This document shows positions 3,321-15,768 of a stretch of DNA of 16,990 bases, one piece after another (the stretch's first letter is position 1; every line of letters begins with the position of its first letter). The notes below the pieces were generated by a model. The model did not search any database. It had not been told where the DNA came from and was given only the letters and a program-made list of their open reading frames with translations. This DNA is from Pseudomonadota bacterium (GTDB lineage Bacteria > Pseudomonadota > Alphaproteobacteria > Rhizobiales > Beijerinckiaceae). The DNA is taken from positions 1 through 16,990 of the forward strand of contig JAJXZN010000194.1 in the NCBI GenBank assembly GCA_021780015.1. Direction: 5' to 3'. The position numbers and the translations under genes are program-made.

Positions 3321-5162
3321 GTGCGGGTTCTCGGTCTCTCCGCGTTTTATCACGACAGCGCTGCGGCGCTGGTCGAGGACGGCCGGATTCTCGCCGCCGC
3401 CCAGGAAGAGCGCTTCACGCGCAAGAAGCACGATCCGGCTTTTCCACGCAACGCAATCGATTATTGCCTCAGCCAGACGCCGAGCGGCGCAGCCGGCATC
3501 GACCGGATCGTCTTTTACGAAAAGCCCTTCGTGAAATTCGAACGCCTGCTCGAAACCTATCTCGCCTTCGCACCGCAGGGCTTTGCCTCCTTCCGTAAGG
3601 CGATGCCGCTGTGGATCGGTGAAAAGCTTTTCCAGCGCGATCTCCTCTTGCGCGAACTGAAGGCGATCGATCCGGCGCTGGGCGACAGGAAGAAGCTTGG
3701 CTTCGGCGAACATCATTATTCGCATGCCGCCTCCGCTTATTACCCCTCGCCCTTCACGTCGGCGCTGGTGCTGACCATGGACGGCGTCGGCGAATGGGCG
3801 ACGACGACGGCGGCGCTCGGCCGCGGCGACGATCTTGAGATCATCAAAGAGATTCGCTTTCCGCATTCGCTCGGGTTGCTCTATTCGGCCTTCACTTATT
3901 ACACCGGCTTCAAGGTCAATTCCGGCGAATATAAAGTCATGGGGCTTGCGCCCTATGGGACGCCGAAATATGCGCAGACGATCCTCGAGCATCTGATCGA
4001 CGTAAAGGCCGACGGCTCGTTCCGTCTCAATATGGATTATTTCTCCTATTGCACTGGCCTCACGATGACCGACGCGCGCTTCGACGCGCTTTTCGGCGGA
4101 CCGCCGCGCCGCCCCGATGAGCGGCTCGAACAGCGCCACATGGATCTCGCCGCCTCGATCCAGGCCGTGACGGAAGACGTCGTGCTGCGCCTGACCCGGG
4201 CGCTTGCGGCGGAGACGGGCGAGAAGAATCTCTGCCTTGCCGGCGGCGTCGCGCTGAACTGCGTCGCCAATGGCAAGGTTTTGCGCGACGGCGCCTTCGA
4301 ACGCATTTTCATTCAGCCCGCCTCGGGCGATGCGGGCGGTGCGCTCGGCGCGGCGCTGACGGGCTATTATGACGGCCGCCGCGATGCACGCAAGAAATCG
4401 ATCGTCCAAGAGCCGGACGCGATGCAGGGCTCCTATCTCGGGCCATCCTATGCACAAGCGGATATCGAAGAACGGCTTGAGAAGGCCGGCGCCAAATTCC
4501 ATGTCGTCGACGATGCGGCGCTCATCAGCGAGACTGCTGCGGCGCTTGCCGCCGGCCAAGCGGTCGGCTGGCATCAAGGCCGAATGGAATTCGGCCCGCG
4601 CGCCCTCGGCGGGCGCTCGATCCTCGGCGATCCGCGCTCGCCGACGATGCAGAAAGTACTGAATCTGAAAGTCAAATATCGCGAGAGCTTCCGGCCCTTC
4701 GCGCCGTCCGTGCTACGCGAAAAGGTCGCCGACTGGTTCGATCTCGACACCGATTCGCCCTACATGCTGCTCGTCGCCGATGTCAAAGATTCGCGCTGCC
4801 GCAAAATGTCGGCCGAAGAACAACAGCTCTTCGGCATCGACAAGCTGAATGTCCTGCGCTCCGAAATCCCGGCGGTGACGCATGTCGATTATTCAGCGCG
4901 CATCCAGACCGTTCATAAAGAGACGAACCCGCGCTATCACGCCCTGATCGAGGCCTTCGCCGGATTGACCGGCTGCCCCGTGGTCGTCAACACGAGCTTC
5001 AATGTGCGCGGCGAACCGATTGTCGCCACGCCGGAAGACGCGTTCGCCTGTTTCATGGGAACCGAGATCGAGTTTCTCGCCGTCGGCAATTGCATCCTGC
5101 GCAAGGACGAGCAGAACCCGGCACTCAAGCGCGACTACAAAGACGCGTTCGAGTTGGATTAA
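3321..5162 (+). CDS. O-carbamoyltransferase (NodU/CmcH/SxtI family)
   Basis: 613-residue enzyme that transfers a carbamoyl group from carbamoyl phosphate, through carbamoyl-AMP, to a hydroxyl of a sugar or small molecule. The N-terminal domain starts RVLGLSAFYHDSAAALVEDG. Its metal-binding histidines lie in GEHHYSHAASAYY (H131, H132, H135), followed by LTMDGVGEW and SGEYKVMGLAPYG. The nucleotide-binding motifs LCLAGGVALNCVANGK (about 304-319) and PASGDAGGALGAA are intact. The C-terminal YrdC-like domain has WHQGRMEFGPRALGGRSIL, YRESFRPFAPSVL and VVVNTSFNVRGEP. Length is normal. The start is a GTG at 3321, 6 bases after the DUF5989 stop. The acceptor is unknown: relatives act on Nod factors, antibiotics and saxitoxin. 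The sxtJ/sxtK-like companions suggest the SxtI-like subgroup. Its stop overlaps that of the convergent SGNH hydrolase. Confidence 0.93.
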   Translation: MRVLGLSAFYHDSAAALVEDGRILAAAQEERFTRKKHDPAFPRNAIDYCLSQTPSGAAGIDRIVFYEKPFVKFERLLETYLAFAPQGFASFRKAMPLWIGEKLFQRDLLLRELKAIDPALGDRKKLGFGEHHYSHAASAYYPSPFTSALVLTMDGVGEWATTTAALGRGDDLEIIKEIRFPHSLGLLYSAFTYYTGFKVNSGEYKVMGLAPYGTPKYAQTILEHLIDVKADGSFRLNMDYFSYCTGLTMTDARFDALFGGPPRRPDERLEQRHMDLAASIQAVTEDVVLRLTRALAAETGEKNLCLAGGVALNCVANGKVLRDGAFERIFIQPASGDAGGALGAALTGYYDGRRDARKKSIVQEPDAMQGSYLGPSYAQADIEERLEKAGAKFHVVDDAALISETAAALAAGQAVGWHQGRMEFGPRALGGRSILGDPRSPTMQKVLNLKVKYRESFRPFAPSVLREKVADWFDLDTDSPYMLLVADVKDSRCRKMSAEEQQLFGIDKLNVLRSEIPAVTHVDYSARIQTVHKETNPRYHALIEAFAGLTGCPVVVNTSFNVRGEPIVATPEDAFACFMGTEIEFLAVGNCILRKDEQNPALKRDYKDAFELD

Positions 5163-6409
5163 TCGGCGCTGCCTGAAGCCGTCGCCCCCTGGCATTGCGG
5201 ATCGGATGCCGATTGCAAGAGGCTCGGGGCATGTTCGGCGAGGTAATTCTTTAGAATCGAAGCGCGGAGCTGATTGGCATAAGGCGTCGGATGGCCGTCG
5301 CCCTGAATGCTGATTTTCGCGGGCGGTTCTTTCTGCAGGCTGGCATCGATCACCGTGGCGCCGCCTTGGCGCAGCCGCTGCATGATTTCATCATCCGTAA
5401 ATCCTGTGCCGCGGAAGAAGCTGGCGTCCGAGCGTAGGTAAAGAATGACCGTCGATGCATTATATTTCGTTTTGGCGAGTTGGACCGCCGCATCCGTGAT
5501 GCGAATATAAAGCTCGATATCGTCGTGCGTCAGTTGCCGCCGATAGGGTTCCACGAATTCGCGATAAAGAGCCGTATTCTCGAGCCAATCGCGGAACCAG
5601 CGGCTTGGCCCGTGCGGATTGCAGTCGCCGACATAGACGACCTTGTCGTTTTTCACGACGTAGCGCGGCGCGATCGCCGTCCAATAGGCTTTGCAGGCCG
5701 TGCGCTCGGCGTGCCAGACGGCGGTGAGAAAGACGAAGAGCTTGGGATCGGGGCCGATGACTTTATCAAACCGGCCGGTCTCCTCCTCGCGCAGGAATTG
5801 CTGCGGGCCATAGCCGGTGAACCCCAGATTCAGAACCCGGAGTTTGCGGTCGAGCAGATCGGAAAAATTCTGCGGCAGGGTCTCGTTGTCGTTGACGCCA
5901 TCGCCGAAAGTGAAGGAACAGCCGAAGAAGACGACCGGCGGGCCCTTCTTGCAGGAGAGGGTCTGGCGCAGAAGATTGTGGTCGATAGTATAATTGGCGT
6001 CGTAGATCGTCTTGCCCGCGCTATCGATGCGGTAATCATGAAAACGCCCCGGCGCTGCCGGCCCCCAGCCAATGATGGGTTGGGCCGGCGAGAAAACACC
6101 GCGCGGCGCCAGGGTGCCGCCCGTCTGATGCATCATCGAATCCGAGACCCCCTCGATGATGATGAGGCCGACGGCGAGCGATGTGAGGATGATGAAAAAA
6201 TCGCGCAGCTTTCCGCGCGTCAGCCATGCGATATCAGCCAGCAGCAAGGCGACGGCGCTAAAGGTGAAAACGCGGAAGAAACTGACGAAATGCCACGATT
6301 CGAACAGGGCGATGAGGCCGATGAAAACTGGAATTGCAAAATAGGCCAGTTTCGGACGCGGATTGTTATCGGCGGTCGCCAAGTCGAACCTCTCCGGCTG
6401 ATGCAGCAT
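5159..6409 (-). CDS. Membrane-anchored SGNH/GDSL hydrolase family protein
   Basis: 416-residue protein with three N-terminal hydrophobic segments (about residues 21-38, 42-63, 69-88), then a periplasmic or extracytoplasmic SGNH hydrolase domain. Block I is VVFFGCSFTFGDG with the probable nucleophile S165. Block II is LNLGFTGYG. Block V is GDGHPTPYANQ, which supplies the Asp-x-x-His pair. The block III Asn expected in GxND is not visible: the corresponding stretch reads LTAVWHAERT. Such proteins often add or remove acyl groups on glycans or lipids. The gene converges on the carbamoyltransferase, a common neighbour of SGNH proteins, so both may tailor the same molecule (inference). No strong ribosome-binding site precedes ATG at 6409. 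It could also be co-transcribed from dnaN, 73 bases upstream. Confidence 0.8.
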   Translation of the reverse strand: MLHQPERFDLATADNNPRPKLAYFAIPVFIGLIALFESWHFVSFFRVFTFSAVALLLADIAWLTRGKLRDFFIILTSLAVGLIIIEGVSDSMMHQTGGTLAPRGVFSPAQPIIGWGPAAPGRFHDYRIDSAGKTIYDANYTIDHNLLRQTLSCKKGPPVVFFGCSFTFGDGVNDNETLPQNFSDLLDRKLRVLNLGFTGYGPQQFLREEETGRFDKVIGPDPKLFVFLTAVWHAERTACKAYWTAIAPRYVVKNDKVVYVGDCNPHGPSRWFRDWLENTALYREFVEPYRRQLTHDDIELYIRITDAAVQLAKTKYNASTVILYLRSDASFFRGTGFTDDEIMQRLRQGGATVIDASLQKEPPAKISIQGDGHPTPYANQLRASILKNYLAEHAPSLLQSASDPQCQGATASGSAD

Positions 6410-6437
6410 GATCGGCGAGATTGTCTAAGCTAGTCCG

Positions 6438-6462
6438 TCGCCGGGTTCAACGACCCCGGCGA
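6438..6462 (-). terminator. Hairpin between dnaN and SGNH hydrolase gene
   Basis: A perfect 8-bp inverted repeat, TCGCCGGG at 6438-6445 and CCCGGCGA at 6455-6462, flanks a 9-base loop in the 73-base gap after the dnaN stop. It would form a GC-rich hairpin in the dnaN transcript. No U-run follows on the minus strand, so it is a weak or attenuating terminator at best, and an mRNA 3'-end stabiliser is equally possible. Confidence 0.4.
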
Positions 6463-6482
6463 TCACAGAAGTCTGAAGATCG

Positions 6483-7601
6483 TTAGACCCGCATCGGCAT
6501 CAGAACATAAAGCGCCGCCGCGCCCTCGTGATCGAGCACGAGCGTCGGCGAGCCGGGATCGGCAAGCTTGAACAGAGCCGTGTCGCCGTCGAGTTGATTG
6601 GTGATGTCGAGCAGATAGCGCGCATTGAAGCCGATCTCGAGCGGTGCCGCGTCGTAATCGACCTCAAGCTCCTCGACCGCAGAGCCCGAATCGGGATTGG
6701 TGACGGAGAGCGTCAGCTTGTTGTCGCCGACGGCGAGCTTCACGGCGCGGCCGCGTTCAGACGAAATCGTCGAGACGCGATCGACCGCCGCGGCGAAGGG
6801 CTGGCGGTCGACCGTCAGCAATTTGTCATTGCCGGCCGGAATGACCCGGACATAGTCCGGGAAGGTGCCGTCGATAAGCTTGGTGATGAGCACGACATCG
6901 CCGAAGCTGAAACGCGCCTTGGTCGGCGAGATTTCCAGCTCGACATCGGCGTCGAGGTCTTCGATCAGCTTTTGCACTTCGGCGACGGCCTTGCGCGGAA
7001 TGATGACGCCGGGCATGCCGGCGGCGCCTTGCGGCGCCGGGATTTCGACACGCGCCAAGCGATGGCCGTCGGTTGCGACGGCGCGCAGCATGGCGTGGCC
7101 GCCGACATCGACCGTGTGCAGATAAATGCCGTTGAGATAATAGCGCGTCTCTTCGTTCGAGATCGCAAACTGCGTCTTGTCGATCAGCTTTTTCAGATCG
7201 GCGGCGGTGAGCGTGAAGCGATGGGTAAAATCGCCGGCGGCGAGATCGGGAAAATCGCTTTCCGGCAAAGCCTGGAGGTGGAAGCGTGAGCGGCCCGAGC
7301 GCAACAGCAATTGCGCCGCGTCGCCCGTCGCGTCGAGCGAGACCTGCGCGCCCTCCGGCAGCTTGCGGACGATCTCATAAAGGATGTGGGCCGGCAGCGT
7401 CGTCGCGCCCGCCTGGCCGACATCGGCCGGCAGCCGCTCGGTGACCTCGAGATCGAGGTCGGTCGCCTTGAGCAGGACGGAATTGCCTTCGGCAGCGAAG
7501 AGGACGTTGGAGAGAATTGGGATCGTCGTGCGCCGCTCGACGACGCGGTGCACATGGCCGAGCGCCTTCAACAGAGCGGCGCGTTCGAGAGTGACTTGCA
7601 T
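6483..7601 (-). CDS. dnaN: DNA polymerase III subunit beta (sliding clamp)
   Basis: 372-residue ring-forming processivity clamp that holds DNA polymerase III on DNA. The sequence follows the bacterial family from MQVTLERAALLKALGHV through RRTTIPILSNVLF, the YYLNGIYLH and AVATDGHRLARVE blocks (domain 2 centre), LIDGTFPDY, ISSERGRAVKLA and the C-terminal YVLMPMRV. I chose ATG at 7601 because it gives the normal start and length. A longer in-frame reading to 7682 adds 27 arginine-rich residues absent from the family. Here dnaN is not next to dnaA or recF, unlike the classical order. It is divergent from the penicillin-binding protein gene and followed by an SGNH hydrolase in the same direction. 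Confidence 0.97.
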   Translation of the reverse strand: MQVTLERAALLKALGHVHRVVERRTTIPILSNVLFAAEGNSVLLKATDLDLEVTERLPADVGQAGATTLPAHILYEIVRKLPEGAQVSLDATGDAAQLLLRSGRSRFHLQALPESDFPDLAAGDFTHRFTLTAADLKKLIDKTQFAISNEETRYYLNGIYLHTVDVGGHAMLRAVATDGHRLARVEIPAPQGAAGMPGVIIPRKAVAEVQKLIEDLDADVELEISPTKARFSFGDVVLITKLIDGTFPDYVRVIPAGNDKLLTVDRQPFAAAVDRVSTISSERGRAVKLAVGDNKLTLSVTNPDSGSAVEELEVDYDAAPLEIGFNARYLLDITNQLDGDTALFKLADPGSPTLVLDHEGAAALYVLMPMRV

Positions 7602-7653
7602 GGGACGAATCCGAACTCTTTGAAGCTTCCGGTTGGAGCTTGCGGGCGGGCAG

Positions 7654-7671
7654 GCGCGGCGCGCGCCGCGC
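7654..7671. repeat. 18-bp perfect GC palindrome
   Basis: GCGCGGCGC at 7654-7662 is directly followed by its reverse complement GCGCCGCGC at 7663-7671. It lies 53 bases upstream of the dnaN start, so it is either in the dnaN 5' leader or in its promoter. It may be a protein-binding site or a cruciform/hairpin, or a chance product of high GC content. Confidence 0.6.
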
Positions 7672-7682
7672 AAGGGGCGCAA

Positions 7683-7705
7683 ATTTGGCGCGGCTCAAGC
7701 CAAAT
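7683..7705. repeat. 7-bp inverted repeat, operator-like
   Basis: ATTTGGC at 7683-7689 and GCCAAAT at 7699-7705 are perfect inverted copies separated by 9 bases, 11 bases beyond the GC palindrome on the PBP1A side. The size and spacing fit a dimeric regulator site. No regulator is identified. Confidence 0.35.
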
Positions 7706-7881
7706 CGCAAGCGCCGCGGTCGTCAATGCCCAGTTTTCGGCAGGGCTTGGGCCGCGGCTGAAAGACCTCTGTTCCGCCATGCTGCGACCGGCTTTCCACC
7801 GTTTTACCCCACCTTAATCGCACCGATCTAGGCTCGCGCCAGCCGCCGGGCAGGCGGCCTCTGCGAGCGGCGGCACAGACG

Positions 7882-10050
7882 ATGGCCAAGGGCAGGAACA
7901 GCGAGCGGCGGGAACCGATCTTCGATGCCTTCCCGGAGGACGAGGAGGAAAAGCCGCGCCGCGCCCGCAAAAAAAAGCGCACCGCGAAGCGCAAGCGGGC
8001 GTCGATCCTGAGCCGCCTCATCTATTGGGTCCTGATGCTCGGCGTCTGGGGCGCCGTCGGCGTCTCGATCGTCGTCGCCTATTATGCGGCGCAACTGCCG
8101 CCGATCGACCAGCTTACGATCCCCAAGCGACCGCCCAATATTGCCATCCTCGCCGAAGACGGGACACTGCTTGCCAATCGCGGCGATACCGGCGGCGCGG
8201 CCGTTCCCCTGGCCGAATTGCCGCCCTATCTGCCGAAAGCCTTCGTTGCCATCGAAGACCGCCGTTTCTACGACCATTGGGGCATCGATCCGATCGGGAT
8301 TTTGCGTGCCCTGGTGCGCGATGCGATCGGCCACGGCGGCATGGAAGGCGGCTCGACGCTCACCCAGCAGCTCGCCAAAAACCTGTTCTTGACCCAGGAG
8401 CGCACGCTGCCGCGCAAAATCCAGGAAGCGATCCTCGCCGTCTGGCTGGAGCACAAATATTCCAAAGATCAGATCCTCGACCTCTATCTGAACCGGGTCT
8501 ATTTCGGCGCCGGTGCCTTTGGCGTCGAAGCCGCGGCGCAGAAATATTTTGGCCATAGCGCCCGCGCGGTGAGCCTCGCCGAGGCCGCCATGCTCGCCGG
8601 ATTGATGAAGGCGCCGTCGCGCTACGCGCCGAATCACAACCTCGCCGCGGCGACGCAACGCGCTGCCGAGGTGATCGAGGCTATGCGCGAGCAAGGCTTT
8701 ATTACGGGACCGATGGCGGAACTGGCCCTGGCCGAGCCGGCGAAGCCCATGCAACCCAAGGCCGGCGGCACGATCAATTATGTCGCCGATTATGTGATGG
8801 ATCAGCTCGACGACCTCCTTGGCCCGGTCGACGAGGACATTGCCGTCCGCACCACGATCAGCGCGCCGCTGCAGAGCGCGGCGGAAAAGGCGCTGCGCGA
8901 CACCCTCGCCGCCAAAGGCGCCCATTACGACGTGAGCCAGGGCGCCCTCGTGGCGCTCGATCCGGACGGCGCGCTGCGCGCCCTCGTCGGCGGCCGCGAC
9001 TATGCCGAGAGCCAGTTCAATCGCGCCACCACCGCCAAGCGGCAGCCGGGCTCGGCCTTCAAGCCCTTCGTCTATTTGACCGCGCTCGAACACGGACTGA
9101 CGCCGGATTCGATCCGCAATGATGCGCCGATCAATCTGCGCGGCTGGCAGCCGGAAGATTACGAACATCGCTATATGGGACCGGTGACGCTGACCACGGC
9201 GCTTGCCCAATCGCTCAATACGGTGGCGGTACGGCTGGCGCTCGAAGTCGGCCCCGCCAATGTCGCGCGCACGGCGCGGCGGCTCGGCATCACCTCGGCG
9301 CTCGATGTCAATCCGACGATCGCGCTTGGCACTTCGGCGGTCACGCCGCTCGAACTCGTCGCCGCCTACGTGCCCTTCGCCAACGGCGGCATCGCGGTGG
9401 CGCCCTATGTCGTTGCCAAGATCACGACCGCCGGCGGCCGCCTGCTTTATCTGCACGAGCCGGCGGCGGGCGACCGTGTCATTGCCCCCGAACATGTGGC
9501 GATGATGAACCGGATGATGGCGGAAACGCTGGCGACCGGCACGGCACGGCGCGCCGACCTGCCGGGCTGGCCGGCGGCGGGCAAAACCGGCACCAGCCAG
9601 GATTTCCGCGACGCCTGGTTCGTTGGCTATACGAGCCACATGATCTGCGGCGTCTGGCTGGGCAATGACGACAATTCGCCGACCAAACGCGCCTCCGGCG
9701 GTTCGCTGCCGGTGGTGATCTGGTCGCATTTCATGCAGGTCGCGCATGCCGGCATTCCGCCGGCACCGCTCAACGGCGGTGTCTGGATGGCGCCGGCCGC
9801 GGCGCCGAACGTGCCGATCGCCAACGCGATCTTGAATTTCTTCGGCGGGCAAGGCAGCGGCCAAGCTCAGCCGCCGGCGAGCCGGGCGACGCCCTGGGCG
9901 CCGCCGATGGCCTTGGGCCAGACGCCGCGGCGCCGATCCTATGCGCCGCCGCCCAGGGACGGCGAAGGTGACGGCCTGCCGCCGGCTTCCATCCCGAACG
10001 GCGGCGAAGCCAGCCAACAGGCGGCCAGACCATTTTTCGGGCTTTTTTGA
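7882..10050 (+). CDS. Penicillin-binding protein 1A family (bifunctional PG synthase)
   Basis: 722-residue class A penicillin-binding protein that polymerises and crosslinks peptidoglycan. A very basic cytoplasmic N-terminus (about residues 24-40) precedes one membrane anchor (about 43-68). The GT51 glycosyltransferase domain has catalytic Glu125 in EDRRFYDHWGID, GGSTLTQQLAKNLFL, and RKIQEAILAVWLE with NRVYFGAGAFGVEAA. The transpeptidase has SxxK at S391-K394 (RQPGSAFKPF), SxN at S444-N446 and KTGTS from K568. The two domains lie close together, so the extra OB-like insert of long PBP1A proteins seems absent. The last 65 residues are Pro/Gln-rich and disordered. The ATG at 7882 gives a typical start; no strong Shine-Dalgarno is visible. 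Confidence 0.95.
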   Translation: MAKGRNSERREPIFDAFPEDEEEKPRRARKKKRTAKRKRASILSRLIYWVLMLGVWGAVGVSIVVAYYAAQLPPIDQLTIPKRPPNIAILAEDGTLLANRGDTGGAAVPLAELPPYLPKAFVAIEDRRFYDHWGIDPIGILRALVRDAIGHGGMEGGSTLTQQLAKNLFLTQERTLPRKIQEAILAVWLEHKYSKDQILDLYLNRVYFGAGAFGVEAAAQKYFGHSARAVSLAEAAMLAGLMKAPSRYAPNHNLAAATQRAAEVIEAMREQGFITGPMAELALAEPAKPMQPKAGGTINYVADYVMDQLDDLLGPVDEDIAVRTTISAPLQSAAEKALRDTLAAKGAHYDVSQGALVALDPDGALRALVGGRDYAESQFNRATTAKRQPGSAFKPFVYLTALEHGLTPDSIRNDAPINLRGWQPEDYEHRYMGPVTLTTALAQSLNTVAVRLALEVGPANVARTARRLGITSALDVNPTIALGTSAVTPLELVAAYVPFANGGIAVAPYVVAKITTAGGRLLYLHEPAAGDRVIAPEHVAMMNRMMAETLATGTARRADLPGWPAAGKTGTSQDFRDAWFVGYTSHMICGVWLGNDDNSPTKRASGGSLPVVIWSHFMQVAHAGIPPAPLNGGVWMAPAAAPNVPIANAILNFFGGQGSGQAQPPASRATPWAPPMALGQTPRRRSYAPPPRDGEGDGLPPASIPNGGEASQQAARPFFGLF

Positions 10051-10230
10051 AATTTTTGGCCTTCAGCGCCGCGTTTTTTCGAAAATTCGGGTCGAAAATG
10101 CTGATTTTTGGCCTCGAGAAACGCGATCTTTGCCGATTTTAATGCCGCAGGGTGGCCAAGAGACATGGATTTTTTATGCCCGGACGGCCAATTCAGGACC
10201 CGTAGTCGATTCTCGGCTTCGGAGACCAAA
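10051..10230. other. AT-rich region downstream of PBP1A gene
   Basis: 180 bases with T- and A-runs. The near-repeat ATTTTTGGCCT occurs at about 10051-10062 and about 10103-10114, and a palindrome TTTTCGAAAA sits at 10076-10085. No GC stem with a following U-run was found, so no terminator is called. It probably carries the promoter of the small ORF that follows. Confidence 0.4.
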
Positions 10231-10470
10231 ATGAGAACAAAAACACAAATTCAAAAAGTTTCGGGGCAACCGAGCAAGCTGGCGCCGGAAATATCTCTGA
10301 TTGCGATTTTGCTGAGCGCGATCCTGCTGCGCGTGGTCGACATCTGTGCGGCGACGCCAGCGGTCGATCCCGCCTGCAGCCCGACCCCCGCAAACCGCGC
10401 CGTCGTTTCCTGCGCCGTCCGCGGGGACCAGAATTGGAATGCCCTGCCCGTTCACACCCGCTCGCGGTAA
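10231..10470 (+). CDS. Hypothetical small protein with one hydrophobic segment
   Basis: 79-residue ORF that I do not recognise. ATG at 10231 is preceded by GGAG (10221-10224) at a good 6-base spacing, the main reason to believe it is translated. Residues about 19-35 (S-L-I-A-I-L-L-S-A-I-L-L-R-V-V) could be a membrane helix or an uncleaved signal anchor. A basic start (RTKTQIQK) lies before it, and three cysteines lie after it in a Pro/Ala-rich tail. The longer frame starting at 10108 has no ribosome-binding site. It converges on DUF1150, with 58 bases between stops. It could be a chance ORF. Confidence 0.35.
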   Translation: MRTKTQIQKVSGQPSKLAPEISLIAILLSAILLRVVDICAATPAVDPACSPTPANRAVVSCAVRGDQNWNALPVHTRSR

Positions 10471-11366: not shown

Positions 11367-11411
11367 GGCGCAAAGCCAAGCCCGGGTTCAGGCCGGCGGG
11401 ACGCGCGACGC

Positions 11412-13559
11412 CTAGAGCGTGGTGGCGGTCGCCGGCCGGCGCAATATCCGGCTTGCCCTTGTCCATTGGCCGAAGGGGATGACGACATCGGCATGCGCCA
11501 GCGTCGCCGGCCGATGCGCGGCAATGACGCGGGTTATGCGCAGGCTGCGCAGGGTTTCGGCGATGATCGCCTCGGTCGCCTCGTCGAGATGGCTCGTCGC
11601 CTCGTCGAGGAACAAGATCCTTGGTCGCTGATACAGCGCGCGGGCCAGGATGATCCGCTGCTTCTGGCCGCCGGAGAGCGCGCTGCCCATATCCCCGACC
11701 AGCGTCTCGAAGCCCATCGGCATCCGGCGAATGTCGTCGATGATCGCCGAACGCATGGCACATTCTTCGATCAGCGCATAATCGGGCTGGTCGTCGAAGC
11801 CGGTAATATTTTCGGCGATCGAGCCGGCGAACAGACCGTCGTTTTGCAGCACGCCGCCGATATAGCGGCGATAATCATCCGTGCCGAGGCCGCGGACATC
11901 GACATTGTCGATCATCACCGCGCCCTCGGTCGGTTCGAAAAGCCCCATCAGGATTTTCAGGAGCGAGGTCTTGCCGCAACCGGACGGTCCGGTGATCGCG
12001 CAGCATTGCCCGGCGTCGATGGTCAGATTCACATTGCGGAAGATCCACGGCTCGTTATCGCCATAGCGCAGCGACAGGCCCGAAGCGACTAAGGTCGCGC
12101 CCCGATAGCGGGGCCCCGGCGCGATCTGCGGCAAGCTCGCGGTCTTCTGCGGTTCGGGTTCCGCCAGAGCGATATCGGACAGCCGTTCCGTCTGCACGTT
12201 CAAGGTCCGCAATTGCAAACCCGACGTCAGCAGGTTGCCGACACGCGCGGTAAACTGGTCCTTATAGGCGAGGAAGGCGACGAGCATGCCGAGCGTCATC
12301 CGGCTGTCGAGGACCATGGTCGCGCCGAGCATCAGCAGGATCACCCGGTCGGCGCCGAACAGAAACTCGTTGGCCCGGCTGAAGATCAGGTCGAGACGCT
12401 GCAATTGCAGGCGCGCATTGAGCGAATCGATAAAATAATTGATCCAGATGCCGCGCCGCCGCTCGGCAAGGCCGAGGAGCTTGACGGTGGCGATGCCGCG
12501 CATCGTCTCGATGAAATGGCTCTGCTGTTTCGCCTCGTTGATGATCGCGTCCTCGGTGCGCTCGCGGTAGGAGCGATAGGCGACGACACGCAGCACGACG
12601 TTCAGCGAGACCGATGCGATCGCGACGAAGCCCAGCCAGCCGCCATAGATGAACAGCATGACCAGCATGCCGATCGCCATGATGCCGTCGAGAACGGCCT
12701 GGACCAGATCGGTCGTCAGCGACTTCTGGATCACCGTCAAAGCGGAGAAGCGGGAAATCAGATCGCCGACATGCCGGCTCTCGAAATAATTCAAGGGCAG
12801 CCGCGCGAGGTGATCGAACAGGCTCGTGTTCCATTGCAGCGAGATGCGCGTGCTCGTCAGCATGATCGCCCAGGTGCGCGCCGTAGCGATGGCGAGTTGC
12901 GAGAGAAGCAGCAGCCCGAGGCCGAGCGCGACGACGAGCAGAAGATCGCGGTCCGCATTGACGATGACTTCGTCGATGATCACCTGCGAGGCGATCGGGA
13001 TCAGCAGGGTCGTGACCTCGATGCCGAGCGAGAGGAGCAGGATCTGGGCGAGCGACGGCGCGAGGCCGGAAACTTTGCGGAACAAGTCTCGCAGACGCAG
13101 CGATTGCCGCTCGTCCGCCCGAACGAACATTTCGGAGGGCAGCACTTCAAGGGCGATGCCGGTGAAGGATTTTGACAGAGCGCTGACCGGCAGCGTGCGG
13201 CGTCCCGCGGCAGGATCGTGGATGACGGCTGTCTTGGGGTCGATCTTTTCCAGCACGACGAAGTGGTTGAGGTCCCAATGCAGGACGCAGGGCAGCCGCA
13301 GCCGCGACAAGTCGGGAATTTCGAGCCGCAGCGCGCGGACCGAGAGGCCGGTGGCACCGGCGATCTCCATCAAGTGACGCAGCGTCGTCCCTTTGAGAGA
13401 GATCGCGTAGCGCCGGCGCAGCACGGTCAGATCGATCGGATGCCCGTAAAAGGCAAGGATCATGGCCAAGCATGCCAGACCGCATTCTGCCGCTTCGCTT
13501 TGCAGAATGACGGGAAGGCGGCGGCGGAATCCGAATTGTAATTGCCTTTCCCAGATCAA
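11412..13559 (-). CDS. C39-peptidase ABC exporter (CvaB-like)
   Basis: 715-residue peptidase-containing ABC transporter that cleaves double-glycine leaders and exports the peptide across the inner membrane. The C39 protease (about 1-140) has Q20 and catalytic C26 in QSEAAECGLACL, H99 in HWDLNHFVVL and D115 in IHDPAAGR, so it appears active. A six-helix membrane domain spans about 165-445. The ATPase has Walker A GPSGCGKT (524-531), LSGGQKQR (628-635), Walker B RILFLDEA (647-654) and H682 in AAHRP. The start is a TTG at 13559, overlapping the TGA of the adaptor gene. It is preceded by a GGGGG run at about 6 bases and gives the family-typical R-R-L-P-V-I-L-Q entry. With the adaptor gene it forms an operon; the outer-membrane TolC partner is not in the window. 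Confidence 0.95.
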   Translation of the reverse strand: MIWERQLQFGFRRRLPVILQSEAAECGLACLAMILAFYGHPIDLTVLRRRYAISLKGTTLRHLMEIAGATGLSVRALRLEIPDLSRLRLPCVLHWDLNHFVVLEKIDPKTAVIHDPAAGRRTLPVSALSKSFTGIALEVLPSEMFVRADERQSLRLRDLFRKVSGLAPSLAQILLLSLGIEVTTLLIPIASQVIIDEVIVNADRDLLLVVALGLGLLLLSQLAIATARTWAIMLTSTRISLQWNTSLFDHLARLPLNYFESRHVGDLISRFSALTVIQKSLTTDLVQAVLDGIMAIGMLVMLFIYGGWLGFVAIASVSLNVVLRVVAYRSYRERTEDAIINEAKQQSHFIETMRGIATVKLLGLAERRRGIWINYFIDSLNARLQLQRLDLIFSRANEFLFGADRVILLMLGATMVLDSRMTLGMLVAFLAYKDQFTARVGNLLTSGLQLRTLNVQTERLSDIALAEPEPQKTASLPQIAPGPRYRGATLVASGLSLRYGDNEPWIFRNVNLTIDAGQCCAITGPSGCGKTSLLKILMGLFEPTEGAVMIDNVDVRGLGTDDYRRYIGGVLQNDGLFAGSIAENITGFDDQPDYALIEECAMRSAIIDDIRRMPMGFETLVGDMGSALSGGQKQRIILARALYQRPRILFLDEATSHLDEATEAIIAETLRSLRITRVIAAHRPATLAHADVVIPFGQWTRASRILRRPATATTL

Positions 13560-14827
13560 CGAACGCCCCCGTTGCTGACCAGGGCGACGCTGCGCTGGAT
13601 GTGATAAAGCGGGTCGAAAAGCCAGCGATAGAGACGGCGCTTCTCGAGTGCGATGTCGGCATCGACCCGCATCCCCGCCTCCAACGGCTTGTGCTCGCCG
13701 TTCGCCAGGACGTAATTCATTTCCGGCGTTACGATGATGCGGTAGATGGAATCCGCATCCTCCTTCTGCACGCCATTGGCGAAATCGCCGGCGCCGACGG
13801 GCGCATGCGTCGATTCCGCGACGCGGCCGTGGTAAAGTCCATAGCGCTGAAATGGATAAGCCGCGTAACGAAGCACCACCGGCGCGCCTTTTTCGACGAA
13901 GCCGATGGCCGCGCTATTGACGAAGAGATTGACTTCCAACGTGCCGGTGCGCGGCAGCAAGGTCACGAGCGGTGCGCCGGAGGGGACCTGCTGCCCGACA
14001 TGCACACGAATCGACGTTGCAGTGCCGGATTCGGGGGCGCGGACCTCGATGCTCTGCTTGGCCTGGTTTTCGGCGATCAATTGATCGATGCGGAGCAACT
14101 CGCTGTTCAGCTGAAAAATGTCCTGCGCGAGCTTGTCGTCGAACATCAGAAGCTGATGATCGACATCCGATAGCCGGGCTTGCACCTGCAGATCGTTCTG
14201 CTGGAACTGCGCCGCTTGCGACAAGGCTTGGATGTAGATGAAATTCTGGCTCTGGTAATCCGGGTCGCTGACGATCCCCCGGCGCACGCCGCCCTGCAAT
14301 TGTTCGGCCTTGGCCTTCATTGCCGCGACGGCGGCGTTTTGGATGGCCATCTGCTGTTGCAGCTGCTCATGCTGGCTCGCGAGATTGGTGCGCTGGTCGT
14401 GCAAAGCTTGTTTTTCGATCTTGGCGATCGACAGGCGATTGGCGCGCTGCTTCTGAAGATTGGCTTTTTGCTGCATCAATTGCGCAATGACCTGCTGCTC
14501 GGTCGCGCCCTCGGCCGAATGGGTGTCGAGATCGAGCACATAAAGAAGCGCGCCCTTGGCGACGATATCGCCCTCCTTGACCGCGGCGCTGGTCACGACG
14601 CCGGCTGTCGGACTGGCCAGCGTGATCAGTCCGGCCCGCGGCATGAGGATGCCGGCGGCGTGGACGCGGCGCGTATAGGTGCCGAAAATCGCAAAGGCCA
14701 GCACGGCACACAGCAGGCCGATGGTGACCCCGGAAACGGCCCGGACCGGCAGGGGTTGGGCGAGTTGAACCGGGCCGAGCCAGGCACTTCTCCGCGCCTC
14801 CACGACTTCATCGCGAAAAAGGGCCAT
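13556..14827 (-). CDS. HlyD-family membrane fusion protein (CvaA-like)
   Basis: 423-residue periplasmic adaptor that links the ABC exporter to an outer-membrane channel. After a cytoplasmic start (MALFRDEVVEARRSAWLG, typical of the CvaA branch) comes one membrane helix at about 32-50. Next is a lipoyl-type half-motif (about 62-105), then a long Gln/Ala-rich coiled-coil hairpin (about 106-260, including DPDYQSQNF). The second lipoyl half is IEVRAPESGTATSIRVHVGQQV, followed by beta-barrel residues to the end. It overlaps the ABC gene by 4 bases, so translation is probably coupled. No strong Shine-Dalgarno precedes ATG at 14827. It is transcribed away from the double-glycine peptide gene across a shared control region. 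Confidence 0.93.
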   Translation of the reverse strand: MALFRDEVVEARRSAWLGPVQLAQPLPVRAVSGVTIGLLCAVLAFAIFGTYTRRVHAAGILMPRAGLITLASPTAGVVTSAAVKEGDIVAKGALLYVLDLDTHSAEGATEQQVIAQLMQQKANLQKQRANRLSIAKIEKQALHDQRTNLASQHEQLQQQMAIQNAAVAAMKAKAEQLQGGVRRGIVSDPDYQSQNFIYIQALSQAAQFQQNDLQVQARLSDVDHQLLMFDDKLAQDIFQLNSELLRIDQLIAENQAKQSIEVRAPESGTATSIRVHVGQQVPSGAPLVTLLPRTGTLEVNLFVNSAAIGFVEKGAPVVLRYAAYPFQRYGLYHGRVAESTHAPVGAGDFANGVQKEDADSIYRIIVTPEMNYVLANGEHKPLEAGMRVDADIALEKRRLYRWLFDPLYHIQRSVALVSNGGVR

Positions 14828-14864
14828 GACACATCAATAAGTAGAAATTACCGGTATGGCCGAA

Positions 14865-14892
14865 TTCAAGCCAGAGACTCTGGCCATTTGAA
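14865..14892. repeat. Dyad GCCAGAG-A-CTCTGGC with TTCAA/TTGAA flanks
   Basis: GCCAGAG (14870-14876) and CTCTGGC (14878-14884) are perfect inverted arms around one base. TTCAA (14865-14869) and TTGAA (14888-14892) extend the symmetry with a 3-base offset on the right. It lies 38-65 bases before the adaptor gene start, which suits an operator or an mRNA leader hairpin for the exporter operon. Confidence 0.6.
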
Positions 14893-15006
14893 GGACATTG
14901 TGTGGAGAAATTGCAATAACCAAGCTCAAGCCTGATAGATTGCCAATATATATTTGTTTTATTGAGGATCTATTCGAAAGCTAAGTTTTCACGTCGTCGA
15001 TTTAAT

Positions 15007-15034
15007 ACCTTAGCTATTCGCTTATTGCTAAGGT
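15007..15034. repeat. 8-bp inverted repeat ACCTTAGC-N12-GCTAAGGT
   Basis: ACCTTAGC (15007-15014) and GCTAAGGT (15027-15034) are perfect inverted copies with a 12-base AT-rich spacer. They lie about 150 bases before the peptide gene and abut a TATACA hexamer. The arrangement fits a dimeric regulator site. No U-run follows, so it is not a terminator. Confidence 0.5.
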
Positions 15035-15180
15035 TATACAGCAAAGCTGCCAACGAATTTCCATAGTCGCGCTACGAAAATGCCCCATGCCCGCTTTTAG
15101 GTGCGCGCATCGTGGTCGCGTGCGTCGCTCAGAGAGACGGCGGCGATCTCGATTCCGACCAACCCAATAGGGAGAACAAA

Positions 15181-15399
15181 ATGCCGGAATTCGAAACGAT
15201 GCGTGAATTGACCAGCTCGGAAATCGATCAGGTCGCCGGTGGCCTCTCGGTCAACCTCGGCCTCGGCGCCCATCTGGGTGTCAATGCCAGCGACGTCACT
15301 GGGGCGGTCTCGGGCCTCGTCGGACAAGTCGGCGGCCTCGTCAGCGGCCTCCTCGGCAGCGTTCTCGGCGCCGTCGGCGGCCTGACCGGCGCGCTCTAA
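15181..15399 (+). CDS. Double-glycine leader secreted peptide, microcin/bacteriocin-like
   Basis: 72-residue precursor. The leader MRELTSSEIDQVAGG (residues 7-21) fits the C39 substrate consensus at every key position: L at -12, T at -11, E at -8, I at -7, V at -4, GG at -2/-1. It resembles the microcin V leader MRTLTLNELDSVSGG. Cleavage after G21 would release a 51-residue core of Gly, Leu, Val, Ala and Ser, with 14 Gly, one Asp, one His and no Cys, Lys, Arg or aromatic residue. ATG at 15181 has GGGAG six bases upstream; an earlier GTG frame from 15112 lacks this. The gene is divergent from the C39 exporter operon, its evident processing and export system. Being uncharged and lacking disulfides, it differs from classical cationic bacteriocins. 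A structural, signalling or pore-forming role is also possible. Confidence 0.85.
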   Translation: MPEFETMRELTSSEIDQVAGGLSVNLGLGAHLGVNASDVTGAVSGLVGQVGGLVSGLLGSVLGAVGGLTGAL

Positions 15400-15459
15400 G
15401 CCTCGCTCATCGCGGCGGGGCATCTTTCACGGTGGCCCGCCGTGTCCACGGGGATGGAC

Positions 15460-15645
15460 TTACGCTTTCCACCAATGCGACCGCGAATGCAGCCGCAGAT
15501 ATTCGGCAAATTCCTGGTCTGACATGATTCGCAGCTGAGCTTCGATATCGTCGGCGGTGCGGTTCAGTCTTCGGATAGTCCAGGGTTCGTTCTTCCGAGA
15601 CGCAATCTTCCGTACGGCGCGGCGCAACAAACGGGCGATGTTCAT
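15460..15645 (-). CDS. Hypothetical 61-residue basic protein
   Basis: I do not recognise the family. ATG at 15645 follows a strong Shine-Dalgarno, GGAGGA, at 6 bases. The protein begins MNIARLLRRAVRKIASRK (strongly basic, possibly an amphipathic helix). It continues with WTIRRLNRTADDIEAQLR and MSDQEFAEYLRLH, predicted helical, and ends HWWKA. There is no transmembrane segment or signal peptide. It converges on the secreted-peptide gene (60 bases between stops) and follows the dehydrogenase gene on the same strand, 123 bases downstream. A cytoplasmic immunity or accessory protein for the peptide is conceivable, but only position supports that. A small regulator unrelated to the peptide is just as likely. 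Confidence 0.6.
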   Translation of the reverse strand: MNIARLLRRAVRKIASRKNEPWTIRRLNRTADDIEAQLRIMSDQEFAEYLRLHSRSHWWKA

Positions 15646-15651
15646 CGGCGT

Positions 15652-15671
15652 TCCTCCGTCCTCTTGGAGGA
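15652..15671 (-). promoter_or_regulatory. Hairpin that can mask the ribosome-binding site of the 61-residue ORF
   Basis: On the minus-strand transcript TCCTCC (15671-15666) precedes an 8-base loop and GGAGGA (15657-15652), the Shine-Dalgarno for ATG at 15645. The six bases are perfectly complementary, so the mRNA can fold with its ribosome-binding site closed. This is an RNA-thermometer-like or antisense-controlled arrangement. The pairing is read directly; regulation is inference. Confidence 0.5.
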
Positions 15672-15768
15672 TAGTGCGGCAAGCATCATCGCCAAGATGG
15701 CCAAACGGTCAATACCGTCGCCGGCCGCTTCGACCTTGACCAAGATCAATTTTGATTTTTGGCGCGAT

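Follow-up and report, generated by a model that had tools for sequence, protein, structure and literature searches.

A three-gene cassette for the probable export of a glycine-zipper peptide in Beijerinckiaceae

The three-gene unit

In this study, we analysed a stretch of 16,990 nucleotides (the window), which is the entire contig C194 of the incomplete Beijerinckiaceae genome G000 (60% complete, 320 contigs). It carries a unit of three genes encoding an ATP-binding cassette (ABC) exporter with a C39 peptidase domain, a HlyD-type periplasmic adaptor and, in divergent orientation, a small precursor with a double-glycine (GG) leader (Table 1). Judged from the DNA and its translations, this unit very probably makes, trims and exports a small hydrophobic glycine-rich peptide. 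The peptide is real, apparently has no name yet, and represents a new peptide family of a kind that is already known.

For the exporter open reading frame (ORF), Pfam models of Peptidase_C39 (1.4e-34), ABC_membrane and ABC_tran were matched. The catalytic residues of the C39 domain are present (Gln20, Cys26, His99 and Asp115), and Cys, His and Asp are spaced by 73 and 16 residues, exactly as in CvaB, whose triad is described as Cys32/His105/Asp121 (PMC9746304). Likewise, the ATPase part contains Walker A (524-531), LSGGQ (628-632), Walker B with its Glu (648-654) and the H-loop His. Comparison with the solved domain 6mpz gave an E of 6.6e-26, the alignment to solved C39 domains spans Cys, His and Asp, and the exporter is similar over its full length to chains of a solved bacteriocin exporter and of ComA. 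The original prediction, made from the letters of the window, had read a C39 exporter with Cys, His, Asp, Gln and all ATPase motifs, together with an overlapping HlyD-type adaptor, and both readings were borne out. The adaptor matches HlyD_3 at 1.8e-14. Its stop codon overlaps the TTG start codon of the exporter gene in the string TTGA, which suggests that both are translated in a coupled manner. The peptidase-containing ABC transporter (PCAT) with Cys-His-Asp triad and the membrane fusion protein, both listed as components of class II microcin systems (PMC9746304), are thereby present.

The third predicted gene, the divergent precursor of 72 residues, could also be confirmed, with GG at residues 20-21 and a position beside the exporter that is kept in relatives. 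Also, the purine-rich stretch 5′ of its ATG is kept in four relatives of the same genus. The mature peptide of 51 residues would start with LSVN and contain 14 Gly and 76% G/A/V/I/L (55% without Leu), with a charge of about -1 and an average mass of 4555.2 Da if unmodified. In the core, GxxxG occurs seven times, compared to 3.3 expected from shuffled sequences (reached in 0.013 of the shuffles), and small-xxx-small motifs 16 times, compared to 10.2 (0.0009). The longer motif GxxxGxxxG is located at residues 48 and 59 and is by itself not enriched (0.18). The best AlphaFold2 model of the peptide has helices at residues 12-28 and 37-71, with a mean predicted local distance difference test score (pLDDT) of 64.8 and ten-residue means of 64-79 from residue 41.

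Table 1. Features of the three-gene unit and of the inserted stretch in the window
Feature	Position	Strand	Basis
C39-peptidase ABC exporter (PCAT), 715 aa, TTG start	11412..13559	-	Pfam domains, motifs, similarity to solved chains
HlyD-type periplasmic adaptor, 423 aa	13556..14827	-	HlyD_3, HlyD_D23, Biotin_lipoyl_2; five relatives 50-69% identical
Double-glycine leader, residues 1-21	15181..15243	+	GG at 20-21, invariant in 26/26 rows of alignment A3
Predicted mature peptide, 51 residues, glycine zipper	15244..15396	+	GxxxG enrichment, AlphaFold2 helix, computed mass
Divergent precursor gene	15181..15399	+	GG leader, kept beside exporter in relatives
Probable ribosome-binding site GGGAG, six bases 5′ of peptide ATG	15170..15174	+	Seen in sequence
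DNA absent from empty-site relatives, approximate extent	11383..15767	.	blastn, four empty sites compared with window
61-aa orphan ORF within inserted stretch, outside conserved unit	15460..15645	-	No Pfam match

Conservation of the peptide alongside the exporter

Among 60 genomes including that of the window, adaptors with 50-69% identity were found in five further genomes, of which four belong to the same genus and one (G018) to the same family. A GG precursor lies near the adaptor in 5/5 of these relatives, in G018 in two copies, and 24 positions are invariant in the seven peptides (window, four same-genus relatives, two of G018). Using exporter-linked peptides, in part from the same species, we built a peptide profile and alignment of 26 rows (A3). 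Its precursors comprise 62-79 aa, GG is invariant in 26/26 rows, and leader and core positions stay in register over several genera.

Scanning named genomes, we obtained 43 loci, 37 with an adaptor of 49-69% identity and six with one of 27-31%. All 37 of the former contain a glycine-rich precursor with GG leader in the fetched DNA, where the scan criteria (GG leader, glycine-rich core) favour low-complexity ORFs of that kind; three of these loci (L051-L053) are probably the same as G005, G003 and G008. Exceptions within this group are L058 with a divergent repeat-type core, L055 with only the second core type, and L078, which is cut by a contig end. In the six loci with the remoter adaptor, no member of the peptide family was found. 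Named holders include Methylobacterium and Methylorubrum, with many culturable species, as well as Methylopila and metagenome-assembled genomes of Beijerinckiaceae. Cultured, non-pathogenic strains among them are Methylorubrum thiocyanatum DSM 11490 (L075) and M. rhodesianum DSM 5687 (L077).

When 397 genomes of the family were sampled, an adaptor was detected in 61 at E<=1e-40 and in 30 at E<=1e-150. A3 matched 33 of the 397, i.e. 30/30 genomes with an adaptor at E<=1e-150 versus three, all weakly, among the other 367; no match was obtained in the 31 genomes having only remoter adaptors (E<=1e-40, not E<=1e-150). The weakest of the 30 is G236 with divergent peptides (5.7e-9 and 6.0e-5). Since A3 came from exporter-linked peptides of partly the same species, the value of 30/30 is partly given by construction, and the rarity of peptide matches without the exporter is the fairer half of this co-occurrence test. 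The three matches outside the 30 are a damaged remnant in G001, a leader match with unrelated core in G341, and a related glycine-rich GG peptide in G379, for which no such exporter was present in the 11 kb fetched. In 385 sampled genomes of the class, A3 matched only the window genome and G018, i.e. none outside the family. The original prediction had proposed to look for the three-gene arrangement in related genomes, and had named a peptide ORF that is not conserved where the exporter is conserved as speaking against it. The arrangement was found, and the peptide ORF accompanied the exporter in 37/37 named loci with a close adaptor and in 30/30 family genomes.

Two further groups of precursors were observed in this context. 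At three loci of some Methylobacterium (L054, L056 and L057), the main precursor is accompanied by another one whose core differs, which hints at a two-peptide version. In L173, L174 and L175, related GG precursors combine an MRELTNEE leader with a repetitive, glycine-rich core; in the DNA fetched for L173 and L174, no such exporter was present.

No Pfam or NCBIfam model matched the window peptide above its cut-off; the MccV model (PF17508) reached 13.7 bits compared to a cut-off of 27 (E 0.099). Bacteriocin_IIc (PF10439) matched 5/26 family peptides at E<=0.01 (best 2.6e-5), the window peptide not being among them, and these matches are probably driven by leader and glycine content. With NCBIfam, weak matches to the TigB model of ribosomally synthesized and post-translationally modified peptides (2/26) and to CTB family bacteriocin (2/26) were obtained for the family. 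Among solved structures, none close to the peptide was found; carnobacteriocin B2 was matched at E 0.5 over profile positions 6-36, mostly leader. Among the papers listed in literature searches, no title or opening of an abstract described this peptide family, members of which may already be among 239 published Cdz-like proteins.

Selection on precursor and core

In all ten pairs over five same-genus loci, the ratio of nonsynonymous to synonymous differences (pN/pS) of the precursor was 0.18-0.48; the synonymous differences are large and the ratios therefore rough. They indicate that precursor and core are under purifying selection. For 496 pairs of 32 loci, the median pN of the leader was 0.156, that of the core 0.241, and those of HlyD and ABC were 0.185 and 0.143, respectively. 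According to these medians, the core is constrained, diverging somewhat faster than the exporter, and not hypervariable. That the core is more conserved than the exporter was also considered and rejected, as this held in only 5/10 same-genus pairs compared with HlyD and 3/10 compared with ABC, and in only 176 (HlyD) and 25 (ABC) of the 496 pairs. The spacer between adaptor and peptide genes aligns poorly, with a mean column identity of 54% and many gaps.

Genomic setting and patchy distribution

The unit in the window is flanked by an Hsp20 gene and a 2-hydroxyacid dehydrogenase gene. In G004, G007, G005 and G008, the same two genes are only 138-222 bases apart, thereby representing an empty site; they are far apart in G006 and G018, and elsewhere lie on different contigs or one is missing, which makes these genomes uninformative. 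According to the alignment, the inserted stretch (Table 1) replaces about 30 bases of G004, and no target duplication was seen in the empty-site alignment. G003, G005, G006 and G008 carry the unit at another site, between a radical SAM/B12 gene and scpB. This second site is empty in G002, G004, G009 and G010 and runs off the contig end in the window genome and in G007. In G001 (L172, about 5047-8207), it retains a damaged remnant of the peptide and the end of the exporter gene, and unrelated DNA encoding a family 8 glycosyltransferase takes the place of the adaptor gene and most of the exporter gene; G001 is a natural case of loss of exporter and peptide together.

Among 11 genomes of the same genus, several of them incomplete, the unit was found in five, a remnant in one, and neither in five. 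Within the genus of G018, 43/111 genomes have the adaptor, i.e. the distribution is patchy. When the same-genus relatives are ranked by identity, adaptor and dehydrogenase give the same order and Hsp20 a different one, with G005 lowest. Relocation with losses, or exchange within the genus, would fit better than recent import from a distant source. The unit behaves as a cassette. The radical SAM/B12 gene was considered as a modification enzyme and rejected, as it was matched in 12/12 genomes with or without the unit (partially at a contig end in G001; 56% identical and located elsewhere in G018).

Channel, immunity and regulatory genes

No gene for an outer-membrane channel was found in the unit. 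TolC-type OEP domains are encoded in 6/6 genomes checked, with eight matches in G000, none of them on the contig of the window. Crude searches based on hydropathy and shared ORFs also gave no conserved immunity candidate. Among 248 ORF clusters common to at least two of 30 loci, five were small and hydrophobic, each of which occurred in 2-4 loci, and the window, L018 and L020 contained none of them. Four of these clusters are separated from the peptide by about 3.8 kb or more; the remaining one consists of an 81-aa protein of L065 and a related ORF of L070. Isolated hydrophobic small ORFs are located within 1.5 kb of the peptide in 8/30 loci, none recurring across genera, and that of the window is antisense to the dehydrogenase gene. 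A hydropathy scan beside the unit (window, L018-L021) returned the peptide, frames overlapping peptide or exporter, and a 120-aa ORF with one hydrophobic stretch (10108-10467, plus strand), which is not part of the inserted stretch and matched no Pfam model. An immunity gene could be located elsewhere or have been missed. The 61-aa ORF within the inserted stretch (Table 1) gave, besides itself, only marginal matches (E 0.004-0.01) in 12 genomes. The original prediction of a complete and self-contained CvaAB-like unit is thus supported with regard to likeness to CvaAB, and has to be qualified with regard to completeness, as neither a channel gene nor a recognisable immunity gene is part of the unit.

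In 18/30 loci, an AraC-like regulator is encoded near the peptide, within 4 kb, for example at L060:3803-4729, the one locus on which Pfam was checked. These genes have differing orientations and, by eye, belong to two sequence types; none was seen in the window. The regulator could control the peptide.

Comparison with known systems

The Cdz system of Caulobacter is described as consisting of the exporter CdzA/B, the glycine-zipper proteins CdzC/CdzD and the dedicated membrane immunity protein CdzI, with contact-dependent killing and surface aggregates as further traits (PMC5380434). Our comparison was based on the criteria and descriptions given there. Shared features are small precursors with a GG-like leader end, a glycine-zipper core, a dedicated type I exporter with adaptor, a cluster without TolC gene, two divergent transcription units and a patchy distribution. 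Differences are the number of peptides (a single one in the window and two in some Methylobacterium, where a single one is also the rule in most published Cdz-like systems), the lack of a CdzI-like gene among the ORFs found here and the well conserved core between species. With respect to the criteria for Cdz-like proteins, the precursor of 72 aa lies within the range of 60-151 residues, the leader ends with G[G/A/S], the core has one to two glycine zippers uninterrupted by proline or charged residues, and a type I secretion system is encoded within 10 kb, with ABC and HlyD genes adjacent. The charged tail is lacking, as the window peptide ends with GLTGAL and has no D, E, K, R or H in its last six residues, where 20/26 family rows do have one. 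According to the same source, assignment asks for several, not all, of these criteria. Cdz is the closest described kind, and by analogy the window unit probably works like Cdz; because the charged tail is lacking, no immunity gene was recognised and the comparison with CdzC/CdzD covers described features, it was not filed as a member. The original prediction that the core resembles no nameable bacteriocin therefore holds insofar as the peptide is apparently unnamed, but its kind is known, namely the glycine-zipper, bacteriocin-like type of Cdz (PMC5380434).

With microcin V and CvaAB, the unit shares the leader type, the C39 exporter with identical triad spacing and the HlyD-type adaptor; it differs by the MccV match below cut-off, the lack of a detected immunity gene and the glycine-zipper core. 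PF10439 comprises class II bacteriocins with GG leader and matches some family members, but not the window peptide. The Nap peptides of Neisseria are described as bacteriocin-like, encoded on a horizontally acquired island and directed at the producer, with no antimicrobial activity detected (PMC11798529). By description, they are alike in being small and bacteriocin-like and different in being cationic, which the window core is not.

Proposed function and alternatives

From the three genes, their catalytic motifs, their linkage and their conservation, we infer the following course. The exporter would recognise the precursor via its GG leader, and its C39 domain would cut after Gly21. The peptide would then pass exporter, adaptor and a TolC-type channel encoded elsewhere. 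As a hydrophobic glycine-zipper helix of 51 residues, it would most likely oligomerise in or on membranes, and it may finally act as a bacteriocin-like antagonist of neighbouring cells, analogous to Cdz. We give about an even chance to the reading as a three-gene export cassette for such an antagonist, because of the CvaB-like triad, the linkage, the two genomic homes with their empty sites, the joint loss in G001, the Cdz-like features, the patchiness and the Bacteriocin_IIc matches. Several findings weigh against it: G, A, V and I make up 55% of the core compared to 75% in mature CdzC/D (PMC5380434), the charged tail is lacking, no conserved immunity candidate was found, the confidence of AlphaFold2 is modest (the remaining four of five models have a mean pLDDT of 48.8-55.8), and the core is not hypervariable, unlike microcin cores, which are described as highly variable (PMC9746304), and Cdz-like proteins, described as substantially varying (PMC5380434).

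Because no immunity gene was recognised and the core is steady, a non-toxic or self-directed role has to be considered as well. A conserved, non-lethal secreted peptide, either a surface amyloid or adhesin-like glycine-zipper peptide or a kin signal, is possible with a clearly lower probability than antagonism. It would need no immunity gene and could be expected to retain its core for long periods, and is in line with a core pN only somewhat above that of the exporter, the core charge of about -1, the occurrence of glycine zippers in amyloids (PMC5380434) and the nearby AraC-like regulators. However, the patchy distribution, the relocation and the decay would be more typical of a weapon than of core biology, and no receptor or cognate surface genes were identified. 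For the exported glycine-zipper family of Beijerinckiaceae and Methylobacterium as a whole, we propose more tentatively that it is not a bacteriocin. It would then be directed at, or benefit, the population of the producer itself, either as a public good that assembles on surfaces or modulates membranes, or as a signal of self-recognition, and this would explain why it is retained with a conserved core and no immunity gene. If so, machinery usually read as a weapon would serve that population.

A freely diffusible class II microcin, or a class IIb-like two-peptide bacteriocin with an unrecognised immunity gene, is unlikely. Leader type, PCAT and adaptor are as in microcin V, and two precursors occur at several Methylobacterium loci, but the core is very hydrophobic and rich in Gly, the MccV model was matched only below its cut-off, and the lack of a conserved immunity candidate counts here, too. 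Finally, the low-complexity Gly/Ala/Val/Leu composition could mimic similarity, and the scan criteria favour such ORFs, so a chance ORF adjoining the exporter of another substrate was weighed. The positions in register over several genera, pN/pS below 0.5 in 10/10 same-genus pairs and the rarity of peptide matches without exporter make this very improbable. Since many of the Methylobacterium and Methylorubrum species that carry the family can be cultured, the antagonistic, contact-dependent reading can be directly tested against microcin and against surface or signal peptide. The family thereby bears on whether Cdz-type antagonism extends to Methylobacterium and its relatives.

Plasmid records and distant loci

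With the peptide as query, tblastn returned nothing from the PLSDB plasmids; this search is insensitive, as plasmid record L097 with two family peptides was missed. Searching with the adaptor gave 1041 plasmid records, all below 60% identity. Of four records examined, that of Methylobacterium bullatum holds two family peptides, and those of Kozakia, Gluconobacter and Agrobacterium vitis contain GG precursors with other cores. On the Kozakia and Gluconobacter plasmids (L095, L096), relatives of the exporter are encoded beside GG precursors with a different Gly/Ser/Thr-rich core, and in Kozakia the annotation places a gene for a retropepsin-like protease beside the adaptor gene. In Mitsuaria, two short GG precursors (L090:7373 and 9279) with near-identical leaders and FFSK cores are located downstream of a distant adaptor.

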